A stretch of 64,000 bases of DNA from Betaproteobacteria bacterium. GTDB lineage: Bacteria; Pseudomonadota; Gammaproteobacteria; Burkholderiales; Casimicrobiaceae. Each line of letters starts with the position of its first letter. The stretch's first letter is position 1. Shown here one piece after another: positions 27,335 through 35,401 of the stretch. A program made the position numbers and the translations under genes. The notes under the pieces are model-generated. The model saw only the letters and a list, made by a program, of their open reading frames with translations, ran no database searches and was not told where the DNA came from. The stretch spans positions 1 through 64,000 of the forward strand of contig WRFN01000011.1 of the NCBI GenBank assembly GCA_009778785.1, written 5' to 3'.

Positions 27335-27434
27335 AAAAAAAGAAAGCCCACCAGGAGGAGGTGGGCCAAAGGGGGTTCTTTTCAGCAGTGCTAAAGCGGA
27401 AAAAACATCAAAACATTTTTGCCGCTAAGTTACT
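27335..27434 (-). ncRNA. candidate GlrR/sigma-54-dependent small RNA (novel)
   Basis: A sigma-54 promoter (27446..27459) predicts a start near 27434, and a Rho-independent terminator ends at 27335, giving an RNA of about 100 nt. Hairpin 1 (27395..27426) pairs AGCGG-C-AAAAA with TTTTT-T-CCGCT around a 10-nt loop. A single-stranded linker with AAAAGAACCCCCUUUGG follows, then the terminator hairpin GCCCACC/GGTGGGC, whose seven-base loop is UCCUCCU. The UUUCUUUUUUU tail could bind Hfq. No open reading frame of note is inside. The loop complements Shine-Dalgarno sequences, so base-pairing regulation is likely. I see no sequence resemblance to GlmY or GlmZ. The call is inference from promoter, terminator and structure. 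Confidence 0.7.
27346..27366 (-). terminator. terminator of the candidate small RNA
   Basis: Minus-strand stem GCCCACC/GGTGGGC with loop TCCTCCT, followed by TTTCTTTTTTT (to 27335). Confidence 0.85.
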
Positions 27435-27445
27435 CTATTATACAA

Positions 27446-27459
27446 GCAGGAATCGTGCC
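27446..27459 (-). promoter_or_regulatory. sigma-54 promoter (-24 GG / -12 GC)
   Basis: The minus strand reads TTGGCACGATTCCTGCTTG, with GG and GC separated by exactly ten bases. This matches the TGGCACG-N4-TTGC consensus in nearly every informative position. It points toward the terminator at 27346, with no CDS between. Confidence 0.85.
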
Positions 27460-27489
27460 AAATATGAATTTATTTTAATTGTTTATTCT

Positions 27490-27565: not shown

Positions 27566-27583
27566 TGTCTCTAAAAGAAGACG
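27566..27583. promoter_or_regulatory. GlrR-type activator site 1
   Basis: TGTCTCTAAAAGAAGACG matches TGTC-N10-GACA at seven of eight fixed positions. The central 16 bases (GTCTCTAAAAGAAGAC) are identical to site 2. It lies about 130-150 bp upstream of the predicted sRNA start. Confidence 0.7.
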
Positions 27584-27630
27584 GTTTCTATAAGTTTTAA
27601 CTCAACAGTGTGATATTTATACTTTTTTTG

Positions 27631-27648
27631 TGTCTCTAAAAGAAGACA
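27631..27648. promoter_or_regulatory. GlrR-type activator site 2
   Basis: TGTCTCTAAAAGAAGACA is a perfect TGTC-N10-GACA element, 65 bp from site 1 and about 200 bp upstream of the predicted start. The consensus is the one described for GlrR at enterobacterial glmY/glmZ. The glrR gene itself ends about 180 bp away. Confidence 0.75.
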
Positions 27649-27826: not shown

Positions 27827-29173
<1,347 letters not shown>

Positions 29174-29194: not shown

Positions 29195-29815
29195 TCACTT
29201 GGACGCGGCCTTGTTGGACGTTGTCTTTTTCGGCGGTGTTTTGGGCGCATCGGGGAGTTGCCCTGCCAACAATTGGCGATCCACATCCCGTAACGCTTCC
29301 AGCTTTTGCATCGCCCGCTGCTTTTCCTGTATCTGCAATTGCAAAACGCTCGCCAGATGCCGTAGCGTCGGCGGCGTTTTTTCGTTCTTCGCCACAGTGT
29401 CGAGCAGAGTTATCGCTCGCTGGTCGTTGACGCCGCCGGGTTGCAGTGACAACAAATACGCCAGCCGGATTCGGTTGCCGTTTCCGCCGCTTTGCCCCGC
29501 CGCCGAGATGCTGTTGTTCAACTCCGTTTGCGATGCCTTGATTTCCTCGGTGCTCAAGCGCGGATAGCGAGCCAAATCATCGAGCAATTTCTGAAACTCG
29601 CTCAACCGTTGCGTCAACAGCTTCATATCTTGCGCTGCCGCTGCTTCGCGCGCCGCCGCGAGACTCTCTTCCGACGGTTGTGCTGACGACGGCGCTTCGG
29701 TCACGGCAACCGGCGGCGTTTCCCCCTGCTCTGCTGATTCGGAAGTAGCCACACACCCGCTCACGAGCAATACCGCCAGCGCCAAATAATATTTTCGATT
29801 AAAAAACGACTTCAT
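29195..29815 (-). CDS. qseG: QseG-like outer membrane lipoprotein
   Basis: A 206-residue lipoprotein with lipobox LVSGC (Cys21) and an Ala/Glu-rich, mostly helical mature part; KAASK repeats mark the C-terminus. In enterobacteria QseG (YfhG) sits between glrK and glrR and contacts the kinase GlrK in the envelope. The track's longer start at 29884 is rejected: ATG 29815 overlaps the kinase stop by one base (TGATG) and begins a proper lipoprotein signal. Assignment relies on position and type; sequence similarity to QseG is weak to the eye. Confidence 0.8.
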   Translation of the reverse strand: MKSFFNRKYYLALAVLLVSGCVATSESAEQGETPPVAVTEAPSSAQPSEESLAAAREAAAAQDMKLLTQRLSEFQKLLDDLARYPRLSTEEIKASQTELNNSISAAGQSGGNGNRIRLAYLLSLQPGGVNDQRAITLLDTVAKNEKTPPTLRHLASVLQLQIQEKQRAMQKLEALRDVDRQLLAGQLPDAPKTPPKKTTSNKAASK

Positions 29816-31287
29816 CAAGAAACCCCTTCGATAGTTTTTTGTCTGCTGATAAGAGGCAGGGTACTGGTCCAAAACGGGAGCCACAAAATCAAACGCGCGC
29901 CGCTGCGGCCATCAGGCCTTTTTTCAGCAACGATGCGACCGCCGTGCGCCAACACGTACTCCCTGGCAATGGTTAGCCCCAACCCGGAACCTTTAATATG
30001 ATTCTCCGACGGCGGAGCGCCCTGAAAGAATGATTCAAAAATATGCTCACGCTCGCTCTCAGGAATCCCCGGACCTTCGTCGATGACTTCCAGTCGGGCA
30101 CAATCTTTATCAACGCCCATCGACAACCGGATTTTTCCCAGCCGTGGCGAATATTTTATGGCGTTAGAAACCAAATTGTCGATGATCGTCGTAATTTTTT
30201 TGGCGTTGCCGGTCACCAGCAACGGCAACAGTTTTTCCTCGAAAGAAATCAGCCGCGCCCACGCTGCCAGCCGGTGCTCACGAACGACATGATGAACGGT
30301 GTCGCTCAAATCCACCGGCAACAACACGTTGGGTTCCATCACCCGCGACTGGTGATACTGCAACAAGTCTTCGATCATCCGCTGCAACGACAGCGTGTTC
30401 TCACGGACGATGTGGACAATCTCGCGCTGCTCTTCTTTCAACTCGCCGCCGATGCCGTCACGTAACAACTCGGTGCCTTCGCGGATCGCCGTCAACGGCG
30501 TTTTCAGTTCGTGCGACATATTGCGCAAAAATTTCGTCTGCTGCTCTTCGAGCGTTTGCAACCGTGCCCGCAACCATTCGAGCCGTTGCCCCAGATAACG
30601 CAAATCCGAAGGTCCTTGTACCTCGATCTCTTTGGAGAAATCGGCGGCGCCCAGTTGTCGGATCGCCTGATCGATTTGTCGAACCGGGCGAGAAATCAAA
30701 AACGTCAGAAAGGCCGCCAGCAGAATGGCAATCACCAGCGCCGTCCACAACCATATCTGCCAATGTCGTCGCCCCGCGTCGGCGGTTTCCTTCAACTGAT
30801 CCACCGACGTCATCGCCACCGCGTAAGCAGTCTGTTGAACGGCCTGCGCGTCCGTCACAAAAGCGCGATAGCCGGCGATGATTTGCGTCGCGCCTTCCTT
30901 GTCACTCCTGTATTTCTGCAAAAGCTGAAAGAGTGTCGCCTCCTCCGCCACCGCATTCTGCAAAGAGTGATCCTTGTCCTCCGAAACCAGTTGCATCAAC
31001 TGCGCTTGCGTATCGGAAAACACTTCGCGCACTCGAATATAATCGTCGAGCACCGCGTGATCTTCGAGAATCGTGTATTGCCGCGCCAGACGCTCCAGCG
31101 ATCCCGCTTGTTCGAGAAACTGCCGTGATAGCCGCGCCACCGCCACCGAACTGTACACACTCTCCCGACTCTGCGACATCAACTCGTTGAGCGCCGCATT
31201 GAGCTTGTAGAGAGCGAAAAAGAGCGGCAGGCTGACCAAAAAGAAGCCCAAGATGATGAATTTGACTAATGAGCGCGGGTAATACAC
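29815..31287 (-). CDS. glrK: sensor histidine kinase GlrK (QseE)
   Basis: A 490-residue membrane kinase. TM1 (about 8-28), a helical periplasmic sensor domain (29-177), TM2 (178-198), HAMP (198-250), a HisKA domain with phospho-acceptor H259 in NMSHELKTPL, and an ATPase domain with N box (DNLVSNAIKYS), G1 box (DEGPGIP) and G2 box (KGSGLGLTIA) follow in order. It should phosphorylate GlrR in response to envelope signals transmitted through QseG. The start is GTG 31287. The gene heads the glrK-qseG-glrR operon and diverges from folA. Confidence 0.92.
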   Translation of the reverse strand: MYYPRSLVKFIILGFFLVSLPLFFALYKLNAALNELMSQSRESVYSSVAVARLSRQFLEQAGSLERLARQYTILEDHAVLDDYIRVREVFSDTQAQLMQLVSEDKDHSLQNAVAEEATLFQLLQKYRSDKEGATQIIAGYRAFVTDAQAVQQTAYAVAMTSVDQLKETADAGRRHWQIWLWTALVIAILLAAFLTFLISRPVRQIDQAIRQLGAADFSKEIEVQGPSDLRYLGQRLEWLRARLQTLEEQQTKFLRNMSHELKTPLTAIREGTELLRDGIGGELKEEQREIVHIVRENTLSLQRMIEDLLQYHQSRVMEPNVLLPVDLSDTVHHVVREHRLAAWARLISFEEKLLPLLVTGNAKKITTIIDNLVSNAIKYSPRLGKIRLSMGVDKDCARLEVIDEGPGIPESEREHIFESFFQGAPPSENHIKGSGLGLTIAREYVLAHGGRIVAEKRPDGRSGARLILWLPFWTSTLPLISRQKTIEGVS

Positions 31288-32069: not shown

Positions 32070-32156
32070 GCCGGGATGGCGGAATAGGTAGACGCAGCGG
32101 ACTCAAAATCCGCCGGTAGTGATACTGTGAGGGTTCGAGTCCCTCTCCCGGTACCA
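32070..32156 (+). tRNA. tRNA-Leu (CAA)
   Basis: An 87-nt class II tRNA with encoded CCA. The acceptor is GCCGGGA/TCCCGGT, the anticodon loop CTCAAAA gives CAA, there is a long variable arm, and the T arm is GAGGGTTCGAGTCCCTC. It stands immediately upstream of the R-M system; tRNA genes are common integration points. Confidence 0.96.
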
Positions 32157-32190
32157 AGATAGAATCCAGCAACATCCAAGGAAGTCCGGC

Positions 32191-32230
32191 AAAGCCGCTT
32201 GATGAATTCATCGGGCGGCTTTGTGTTTTT
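32191..32230 (+). terminator. terminator after tRNA-Leu
   Basis: Stem AAAGCCGC/GCGGCTTT with a 16-nt loop followed by TTGTGTTTTT. Confidence 0.75.
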
Positions 32231-32292
32231 CGCACCTTCTCCGACCAATGAGCATCGATTGCAAAAGCTTATCTCTAACACGAGTCGAGTGC

Positions 32293-32339
32293 TACTTATA
32301 GTCTGTAGCACCATAGTCATCTTTCAGGAAAAATATACT
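32293..32339 (+). promoter_or_regulatory. C-box operators and promoter of the C/R genes
   Basis: TACTTATAGTC (32293..32303) and CACCATAGTC (32309..32318) flank TGTAG and match the paired C-boxes of Esp1396I/PvuII-type controller proteins. A -10 box TATACT at 32334..32339 would place the start near 32346, only about 11 bases before the C gene, with no Shine-Dalgarno sequence. Near-leaderless C transcripts are known for such systems. Confidence 0.75.
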
Positions 32340-32357
32340 TTTTAAGCTGTTCTGACG

Positions 32358-32612
32358 ATGCCAAGAGCCCCAAGCTTTTCACTCCGCAGTATTCTTGCTG
32401 AAAATGTCCGTGCTTTTAGAAAAGTTCATGGTCTTTCGCAAGAAGAGTTAGCCGATCATTGCGATTTGCACCGCACATACATCGGTTCGGTGGAACGTGA
32501 AGAGCGTAATGTTTCCTTGAGTACCTTGGAGACCCTTTCCTTGGCTCTCGGTGTTAGCGTCGCGGAACTGTTGACACCGAGAGTAGAGCATGGCTCCAAA
32601 GACCCCTCTTGA
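32358..32612 (+). CDS. restriction-modification controller protein (C protein)
   Basis: An 84-residue XRE-type helix-turn-helix protein. The HTH covers about residues 26-47 (LSQEELADHCDLHRTYIGSVE), and the size is typical of C proteins. By analogy it activates its own gene and the endonuclease gene at moderate level and represses at high level, delaying restriction until methylation is complete. The C-boxes upstream, the overlap with the endonuclease gene (23 bases) and the nearby methyltransferase support this. Confidence 0.9.
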   Translation: MPRAPSFSLRSILAENVRAFRKVHGLSQEELADHCDLHRTYIGSVEREERNVSLSTLETLSLALGVSVAELLTPRVEHGSKDPS

Positions 32613-33696
32613 TTACAAAAAAGCCATTCAAGTATCCGGTTTTGATATTTATCATCCAGTTGAAGTTGGCGACGCCAATTTCTGGATACCCACGTCCCAC
32701 CTAGAAACATTGCTTGATCACGCCCTTTCAGGGCTTGATCTGAATGGATTGGCGTTGCGAACGCGCTCGAAAGCTATCAAGACGGCCGTTTGTGAAGCTC
32801 TTGGCTATCCTGTTCCAAAATCGTTTATAAAAACACAACCACGATTTCCTGGACAGCAACTTGATACCTACACGCAAAAATCAAATAACTTGCAAATCTG
32901 GAATGAGGAACTATCCCCCGCACGGCGTTATGCGATCATTCAAATTTCCGATCGAGACATTGTCTTGAAAGTTAGGGTAGTGACTGGCCAGGATCTTGCG
33001 CTGTTGGATACGACTGGAACAATCACAACAAAATACCAAGCAAAACTTGCTCTGCGCACCTCCACGTTTGAGCTGGTTTCAGATCAAGATACCTCACCTT
33101 TGTTGCCCCATACACATTTGGGAGTGAGGTTTGGCTCGACAATCAGCCCCATAGATGAACCAGAATCTGGCACATTGATGCCCATTCAGGAGATTTTTAA
33201 ACGGTTATCAACGCTGATTGGCACATCGTTTACCGACCCGGGCATGGATCAAGAACGTAATCGCGGTGCAGTACTGCATCGCATGATTTGTAAATGTCTG
33301 GGGTATTGCCGCTATGAAGAAAATGGACAGTTTCCCGATCTTCGCCACCAGTTGTTGGAAGTCAAGCTTCAAACATCGCCCACCATCGATCTGGGACTGG
33401 TGTTGCCCAGTAGTACAGGTTATCTCGATATTCGGAAAATTGGCGATTGTCGCCCTCGATATCGAGATACGCGTTACGCAATTTTTCACGCCACAACGAA
33501 TAACGGGCAAGTAATACTTACCCATTTATTTCTGACGACTGGTGCTAATTTTTTCAAGCGATTTCCACGCTTTAAAGGCAATGGAATCAACGGGAAAATC
33601 CAAATCCCACTACCACGAAATTTTTTCGGCAGGCAACCCAAAAATGCGCCAAATTCGCGCATCAAGATCGGCAATAAGTTGACCGATCTCCGCTGA
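32590..33696 (+). CDS. type II restriction endonuclease (specificity unknown)
   Basis: A 368-residue protein that I assign as the endonuclease from context and one motif. FPDLRHQLLEVKLQ contains P249-D250 and E257-V258-K259, a PD-(D/E)xK-type catalytic centre. A basic C-terminus follows (RNFFGRQPKN). No precise restriction-enzyme family is recognised, so the target sequence is unknown. It starts inside the C gene, so it is cotranscribed with it. Its 3' end overlaps the convergent methyltransferase gene by 87 bases. The AT content is higher than in neighbouring housekeeping genes, a sign of transfer. Confidence 0.8.
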   Translation: MAPKTPLDYKKAIQVSGFDIYHPVEVGDANFWIPTSHLETLLDHALSGLDLNGLALRTRSKAIKTAVCEALGYPVPKSFIKTQPRFPGQQLDTYTQKSNNLQIWNEELSPARRYAIIQISDRDIVLKVRVVTGQDLALLDTTGTITTKYQAKLALRTSTFELVSDQDTSPLLPHTHLGVRFGSTISPIDEPESGTLMPIQEIFKRLSTLIGTSFTDPGMDQERNRGAVLHRMICKCLGYCRYEENGQFPDLRHQLLEVKLQTSPTIDLGLVLPSSTGYLDIRKIGDCRPRYRDTRYAIFHATTNNGQVILTHLFLTTGANFFKRFPRFKGNGINGKIQIPLPRNFFGRQPKNAPNSRIKIGNKLTDLR

Positions 33697-35361
33697 CGGT
33701 GTTTTTGCGTGAATTTCCTTTGCTAAAGCAATGATTTCGACAGATGCTTCACTTTTTGGATTGGGCAATGGAAACAACTCTACATATTGAGTAATGAAGC
33801 GCCGCCTTCCAGCGTAAAGCTTATTATTGAATCGGTGATCATAGAACGCTTCTATGAACGTGGAGTTAGCCACCGCAAGCGCCAACCACAACAAGTCCTG
33901 ATCAATTCCATTATTACATTGTAGCCAATAGCATTCGCCGTTAACAACACCACCGTCCATATCAAGCCAAAAAACTGGTTTGTCGGAAATATCAGGAAAA
34001 ACAAGCTTTGGCAACGACCACGCAGCAGGATTTTGCGGTACCCATAACTCATACCACTGACGACCCGCCTCAATCAAATAAGTGCGCGCCTCAAGCGCCT
34101 CACGGTGCTTTTTTAGGTAACTCTCCGCCTTGGGATAGCGCTTTAAATCAACAGCAGCGCGACCATTTTCCGTAACTTCATGCGGATAAAGAATTTCTTT
34201 GCTGTTTTTTTCGCCCGAATCAATAGCCTTGAAGCGACGTGCGCATTTTCTAGTAATCAAGGGGCGAAGCAATTCAGGCCGTCCGCCAGATAGATTATTC
34301 CAATCGCTACGAATGAAAATCTTATCCGCCGTTGATTTGACGCCAACCCTTATTTTTCCTATTTGCTGAAACGTGCCCCATGTATGAGCATTGACTATTG
34401 TCAACCATTGATCCGTAGCCTGAGTAGCGATACGCCAAACTCCTTCAATATCGCCTCCGTTATCCAAAACACCATGACGAACCCGGAAATGTCGGCCATC
34501 CGCGATTGCAATAACGGCGCTATTATCCATCTTCAATGCTGATAATACATTTGTAGCCTTTCCTTCGGCAACATCACTCGTTTGATAAATTGATGAAAAA
34601 GAAATTTCCTTTGCCGGAAATCGCCGTAAATCAGACTTACCACGAACCAAAAGCACTGCGGGCAAAACAGCGGCGTTGAAAAGTTTAGTGTCGCCAAGAT
34701 CCCAAACATGCAAAATATTAAAACGAGACAGCATGGCACGCCGAACTGCCTGCCCTGATTTTGTGGTCATAAAACGATTGGAGGTAATTATCCCTGCTAC
34801 GCCATTTGCCGCCAATATCTGAGAAATTCCGAGTAAAAATGGATAGTAAAGATCAATTCGACCAGTCAGATCAAAACTTTTGGCTATCTGTTGCGCCTGT
34901 TGCTTACCCATGATTTGTGTGCGCACATATGGCGGGTTAGCGATTACCAAGTGGTAACGCTCTTGCTCCACTCCATCCGCAGAAAACAAATTATCATTGT
35001 TTTGCAGGGTCAAAACATGATCCAAAAAATCCTTCCTCTCTAAACGTATATCCAGATTAGGAAAGCTCTTAAAAAGGCGTCGAGAGGCTCTTTGAATTGC
35101 TTCTGAATTTTTATCATAACCCACCACCTCAACACGTTCTCTAAGAGTAAGTGAAAAGCTTTGGATTAGCACATCAAGTAAAGCCCCATCACCGCATGCG
35201 GGATCAAGAACACGGATTTTTCCGCTCTTGGGCAAGTCAGCTACCTGAAGTATTTTCTCAGAAACAAACTGCGACAAAGACATGGGGGTATAGGTTACGC
35301 CATCAGCTTTCTGCCGATCAACATCGCTGTATCTTGGCACACTAGTTACTATATTAAGCAT
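33610..35361 (-). CDS. type II DNA adenine-N6 methyltransferase
   Basis: A 583-residue methyltransferase with SAM motif I VLDPACGDGALL (about 51-62) and catalytic motif IV NPPY (142-145), in the order I then IV as in gamma-type N6-adenine enzymes. A long C-terminal target-recognition part follows (see NNKLYAGRRRFITQYVELFPLP). It protects host DNA from the partner endonuclease. The start is uncertain: the track uses 35397, but ATG 35361 gives a conventional N-terminus and lies downstream of a candidate promoter and C-box. Confidence 0.88.
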   Translation of the reverse strand: MLNIVTSVPRYSDVDRQKADGVTYTPMSLSQFVSEKILQVADLPKSGKIRVLDPACGDGALLDVLIQSFSLTLRERVEVVGYDKNSEAIQRASRRLFKSFPNLDIRLERKDFLDHVLTLQNNDNLFSADGVEQERYHLVIANPPYVRTQIMGKQQAQQIAKSFDLTGRIDLYYPFLLGISQILAANGVAGIITSNRFMTTKSGQAVRRAMLSRFNILHVWDLGDTKLFNAAVLPAVLLVRGKSDLRRFPAKEISFSSIYQTSDVAEGKATNVLSALKMDNSAVIAIADGRHFRVRHGVLDNGGDIEGVWRIATQATDQWLTIVNAHTWGTFQQIGKIRVGVKSTADKIFIRSDWNNLSGGRPELLRPLITRKCARRFKAIDSGEKNSKEILYPHEVTENGRAAVDLKRYPKAESYLKKHREALEARTYLIEAGRQWYELWVPQNPAAWSLPKLVFPDISDKPVFWLDMDGGVVNGECYWLQCNNGIDQDLLWLALAVANSTFIEAFYDHRFNNKLYAGRRRFITQYVELFPLPNPKSEASVEIIALAKEIHAKTPSAEIGQLIADLDARIWRIFGLPAEKISW

Positions 35362-35382
35362 CGGCTGGCACCCAAAAATGAT

Positions 35383-35401
35383 ACTCACAGTCATCATTTT
35401 A
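35383..35401 (-). promoter_or_regulatory. candidate methyltransferase promoter with single C-box-like site
   Basis: ACTCACAGTC (35383..35392) agrees with the C-box ACTTATAGTC at 8 of 10 positions. A -10-like TAAAAT lies at 35396..35401 on the minus strand. Binding of C protein here would cover the start site and repress the methyltransferase gene, as known for Esp1396I. No convincing -35 box was found. Confidence 0.4.

Follow-up and report, generated by a model that had tools for sequence, protein, structure and literature searches.

A candidate GlrR/sigma-54-controlled small RNA behind glrR in a genus of Casimicrobiaceae, likely derived from the 3' end of an mRNA

The targets of the two-component system GlrKR have been studied in Enterobacteria, and the small RNA (sRNA) GlmY is the best known of them. 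Does GlrKR also drive an sRNA, of another kind, in the Casimicrobiaceae? The question is raised by a locus behind glrR in a stretch of 64,000 nt, analysed as a whole and hereafter called the window, from what we take to be a termite-gut genus of this family (Burkholderiales), the termite link coming from isolate names. A first-pass annotation had inferred the same GlrKR/sigma-54 wiring as in Enterobacteria, with a different RNA placed behind glrR. This inference held at the level of sequence evidence, transcription not being shown. The features concerned are listed in Table 1.

Table 1. Features of the glrR-linked locus, in positions of the window
Feature	Position	Strand	Sequence	Remark
Predicted small RNA	27335..27434	-		about 98-100 nt; ends in terminator U tail
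Terminator U tail	27335..27344	-	TTCTTTTTTT	
Terminator stem-loop	27345..27367	-	GGCCCACC-UCCUCCU-GGUGGGCU	
Full terminator, as DNA	27367-27335	-	GGCCCACC-TCCTCCT-GGTGGGCT, then TTCTTTTTTT	
Anti-Shine-Dalgarno loop	27353..27359	-	UCCUCCU	
Unpaired conserved stretch	27368..27378	-	GAACCCCCUUU	near invariant in 26 loci
Sigma-54 promoter	27444..27461	-	TTGGCACGATTCCTGCTT	-24 GG 27459-27458, -12 GC 27447-27446
Sigma-54 core element	27461-27446	-	TTGGCACGATTCCTGC	-24 GG and -12 GC present, conserved
Proximal GlrR-type site	27566..27583		TGTCTCTAAAAGAAGACG	TGTC-N10-GACG, single end mismatch
IHF-like site	27603..27614	-	ATCACACTGTTG	ATCA-N5-TTG, between the GlrR-type sites
Distal GlrR-type site	27631..27648		TGTCTCTAAAAGAAGACA	TGTC-N10-GACA, exact; 65 bp from proximal site
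glrR	27827..29173	-		sigma-54-dependent response regulator
qseG-position gene	29195..29884	-		position only
glrK	29815..31287	-		sensor kinase; HAMP, HisKA, HATPase domains

Both the GG-N10-GC sigma-54 promoter and the terminator with its T tail, as read by the first-pass annotation, were confirmed where it had placed them. The stretch of about 100 nt that it had called non-coding, on the minus strand downstream of glrR, held as well: there is no credible open reading frame (ORF), and none of at least 20 aa with a ribosome site was found between promoter and terminator in the window. The promoter box has an exact GG-N10-GC and one mismatch vs. TGGCACG-N4-TTGC. Taken alone, the box is within chance, with 28 two-mismatch boxes observed in the window vs. 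35.6 expected, and so is the terminator (1 per kb in the window vs. 1.3 expected). Neither being beyond chance by itself, the claim rests on the surroundings of the locus and on its relatives. A further box, TTGAAA/TTGAT, lies at window positions 27495-27489, about 35 nt upstream of the sigma-54 element, and is conserved across the family at the same place.

As for the surroundings, the order glrK-qseG-glrR that had been read from the window held, with the identity of QseG given by position alone; no meaningful family match was obtained for this gene in family-model searches. The best NCBIfam model for the glrR product is GlrR (628 bits, vs. 411 for NtrC), although the score is below the GlrR cut-off of 763. 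The protein is 60% identical to E. coli GlrR, the C-terminal NRTEFYKL region included, while GlrK is 33% identical to its E. coli counterpart. The PEP-CTERM/PrsR sigma-54 promoters are comparable in having an NtrC-type regulator, an upstream regulator site and a sigma-54 box before single genes, but the window regulator fits GlrR far better than PrsR (628 vs. 362 bits). The genes for RpoN, Hfq and RapZ are all present in the host genome. At 32070-35397, the window also holds a tRNA and, after it, a small helix-turn-helix gene, a gene of about 368 aa and a 595-aa N6-DNA-methyltransferase-like gene (NPPY motif), a region possibly representing a restriction-modification island.

Two GlrR-type sites and an IHF-like site between them had been overlooked by the first-pass annotation, as had the conserved CCCCCUUU and the CCUCC loop described below. 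The distal site lies at about -213 and the proximal one at about -148, and the predicted +1, at about 27434, was placed 12 nt past the -12 GC. For QseF/GlrR, the published consensus is TGTCN10GACA (PMC8745638). The promoter layout is that of E. coli glmY, where GlrR sites at -197 and -134 (a distance of 63 bp), with a third at -230, precede TTGGCACAGTTACTGC. Among the congeners, the proximal site is conserved in all seven, at about -138, ATCA of the IHF-like site stands at the same place in 7/7 and its full pattern in 6/7, and the spacing of the paired sites is invariant (64-65 bp). The sigma-54 box is kept in the seven congeners and in most Casimicrobiaceae members. Sites, promoter and linkage to glrR are established at sequence level, and GlrR control of the promoter is supported by the paired sites, the IHF-like site, the sigma-54 box and this linkage; such control remains an inference from sequence alone, without evidence of transcription.

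Concerning the RNA itself, the predicted fold is more stable than all of 200 shuffles (z -4.26). CCCCCUUU is unpaired in the predicted folds, and the predicted fold also contains an unpaired anti-Shine-Dalgarno loop of the CCUCC type. Both belong to a 3' module that, across Casimicrobiaceae, consists of AAU-CCCCC-UU, followed by a GC stem, whose loop spans about 7-13 nt and holds either CUCC or CCUCC, and by a U tail; the CCUCC core of the loop is kept across loci even where the loop differs in length and the stem in sequence. Over 26 distinct sequences, 99.4% of the stem cells are paired, with one compensatory double change (A-U/G-C) and one C-G/U-A/U-G position, and slid stem controls gave 40-55% pairing and scores of 0-0.07 vs. 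0.169 for the true stem. A covariance model (R1), trained only on non-termite sequences and thus without the window genus, found the window module as its sole match in the window genome (36.7 bits); weak R1 matches outside f1 and f48 (30-38 bits) were excluded from membership. No Rfam match was obtained for the window RNA at gathering or relaxed thresholds. A caveat to the sRNA reading is that the conservation of the module is partly owed to its role as a terminator, and that part needs no further function.

Within the genus, the order glrR, two GlrR sites, sigma-54 box, variable body and 3' module is kept in seven genomes, even though in one of them (G005) glrR and the remaining elements are split over two contigs. 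In these genomes the 38 nt of the module are 99.2% identical, whereas conservation of the RNA body is poor and the total RNA ranges from 98 to 207 nt. According to the first-pass annotation, a lack of conservation in relatives that have glrR would have refuted the proposal. This was not the case, since the terminator module is kept in 6/6 near congeners with enough flank and in 21 of 22 assessable family loci. A correction is nevertheless needed: in three deeper congeners (G004, G008 and G009) glrR is present and neither sites nor module were found. One more genome, G001, is without glrR in an incomplete assembly.

The family-wide figure comes from an independent set of 23 non-termite Casimicrobiaceae loci fetched by glrR alone, the module being unused; one was cut by a contig end, and nearly all of the 22 assessable loci have the site pair 65 bp apart and the sigma-54 box. 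When the promoter pattern was searched by itself, other genera showed this layout as well, and in most genera of the family the GlrR-type promoter lies directly behind glrR. Scanning the GTDB species genomes with the module alone yielded 27 loci, 25 of which carry GlrR-type sites or a sigma-54 box, with glrR present in most whose flank reaches far enough. The two Wenzhouxiangella loci, having neither sites nor box, were rejected as chance matches. It could be argued that the window locus too is a product of chance and holds no GlrR-controlled gene, the box and the terminator alone being within chance. This is contradicted by all the comparative evidence and is all but ruled out: module identity, fixed site spacing and the unique match of a model from other genera set the locus beyond chance.

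Outside the family, an order-wide pattern search, used for context only, gave about 41 matches vs. about 14 in a reversed control. These matches include chance ones and probably also sites of other NtrC-type regulators. Loci L087-L115, from other Burkholderiales, have paired TGTCG-N8-CGACA sites and sigma-54 boxes, many directly behind glrR, and the genes following the promoters are BON-domain-like, bactofilin-like, EF-hand-like or encode small secreted proteins (judged by eye). With this reservation on the protein types, they likely form a GlrR envelope regulon.

In other genera of the family, a protein of about 53 aa (MDTFAPEF..YWL...ALEELAERV.AARSVV) is encoded between promoter and module. 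In most relatives, the module thus stands in the 3' UTR of an mRNA, whereas that of the window has no preceding ORF. The pure-RNA view of the first-pass annotation therefore needs correction: a stand-alone RNA is special to the termite-gut clade, and most relatives make an mRNA. Members of the protein family, with the conserved C-terminus ELAERV.AARSVV, were seen at L119, L121, L124, L125, L129, L131-L135, L137 and L139-L145; no Pfam match was found for the two members tested, and the family is undescribed. The existence of this protein in the same transcript of relatives speaks for the possibility that the window RNA encodes an overlooked, very small protein. Against it, no ORF of at least 20 aa with a ribosome site was found between promoter and module in any of the seven termite-gut genomes, and the bodies differ in length and sequence, so that this reading is very unlikely.

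The module also accompanies other coding contents. In another family, f48, csbD-like and glycine-zipper genes follow the promoter, which in L151 stands behind glrR, the two proteins being named by eye, and a related module, GAACCCCC...CUCCUCC, is found in the 3' UTR of this operon. In genus g2 (L071-L082), the GlrR-type transcript is not next to glrR; its neighbours, judged from their translations, are a DUF1800-type gene and gpsA, and UUUUCCUCCCCC has its own 3' hairpin with GAUCCCC, ahead of a separate plain terminator; there the C-rich loop motif folds partly closed, which speaks against the sRNA reading. As the GlrR transcript has the module together with several different coding contents, the simplest view is that the stand-alone RNA of the window is derived. 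It is likely that the small RNA arose by loss of the tiny protein from the mRNA, the direction of change being inferred without a tree.

After such a loss, the transcript might be real and controlled by GlrR, and the RNA nonetheless functionless, its module being the mere terminator of a degenerate mRNA. In favour of this are the poorly conserved body, with its length of 98 to 207 nt within the genus, the absence of any target found and the congeners without the locus. However, a bare terminator needs neither an invariant CCCCCUU before the stem nor a CCUCC loop that outlasts changes in loop length and stem, and after the loss of the ORF the module is still 99% identical, with sites and promoter retained. 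A functionless remnant is thus considered unlikely.

Another alternative is a functional counterpart of GlmY/GlmZ, titrating RapZ or activating glmS by pairing. The RNA shares with GlmY the linkage to glrK-qseG-glrR, sites 63-65 bp apart, a near-identical sigma-54 box and a host genome with Hfq and RapZ; binding to RapZ would be an inference. It differs in its place behind glrR rather than before glrK, and its conserved part is a C-rich terminator module that is absent from GlmY. No glmS duplex better than with shuffled sequence was found in six genomes. Membership of the GlmY family was rejected, with no Rfam match at a useful score and no blastn match to E. coli glmY, and a functional counterpart appears very improbable.

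We therefore return to the reading that is likely, namely that the locus encodes a GlrR/sigma-54 sRNA that stems from the 3' end of an mRNA and silences mRNAs at their ribosome-binding sites, its transcript, Hfq binding and targets being unproven. Phosphorylated GlrR would bind the two palindromes at about -213 and -148, IHF would bend the DNA between them, and GlrR would activate the sigma-54 polymerase waiting at 27461-27444. The resulting transcript of about 98 nt would stop at the terminator, and in its 3' module CCCCCUUU and the UCCUCCU loop would remain unpaired. Hfq would sit on the U tail, and the C-rich stretches would pair with G-rich Shine-Dalgarno sequences, so that several mRNAs, probably with envelope functions, would be blocked from translation. 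From the same promoter, relatives would make an mRNA that encodes the protein of about 53 aa and carries the module in its 3' UTR; in the window, the RNA alone would be made. GlrR-dependent transcription, the parts of IHF and Hfq, the pairing and translation block, the targets and the direction of change are all inferred. Perfect targets of CCCCCUUU, searched as AAAGGGGGTT in seven genomes, were no commoner than the reverse, and no match was shared.

Two known systems offer parallels. In NfeR1 (alpha-r14), an alpha-proteobacterial sRNA, unpaired anti-Shine-Dalgarno loop motifs (CCUCCUCCC) silence target mRNAs (PMC10746234). These RNAs and the cuckoo RNAs have the motif CCUCCUCC in a hairpin loop, as does the window hairpin, while stems vary, but the window has one such hairpin, in the terminator, instead of three, and another regulator in another class. 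Membership of alpha-r14 was not met (ar14 model 12.5 bits, E 4.9, threshold 58.8). The sRNA CpxQ originates in the 3' UTR of an mRNA of a two-component envelope-stress system (PMC4817254). Likewise, in the relatives of the window, a transcript that combines a protein with a conserved, terminator-ended 3' RNA module is driven by an envelope-type two-component system; in the window, by contrast, no ORF is left between the promoter and the RNA, and release by RNase and Hfq binding are inferred at most.

The literature searched, with incomplete coverage of journals, contained no account of an sRNA under GlrR control in beta-proteobacteria. On a bolder reading, which we can neither favour nor dismiss, GlrKR would act in this group of beta-proteobacteria via a bifunctional transcript, made of a tiny protein and an anti-Shine-Dalgarno module, from which the termite-gut lineage shed the protein; an mRNA would here be caught becoming an sRNA, as a second, independent invention of a GlrR-controlled RNA beside GlmY. 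As it stands, the locus provides a defined candidate for a GlrR output in beta-proteobacteria, together with an RNA module and a protein family that are both undescribed. It is also a case in which the origin of an sRNA from an mRNA, via the loss of the coding part, can be put to the test.
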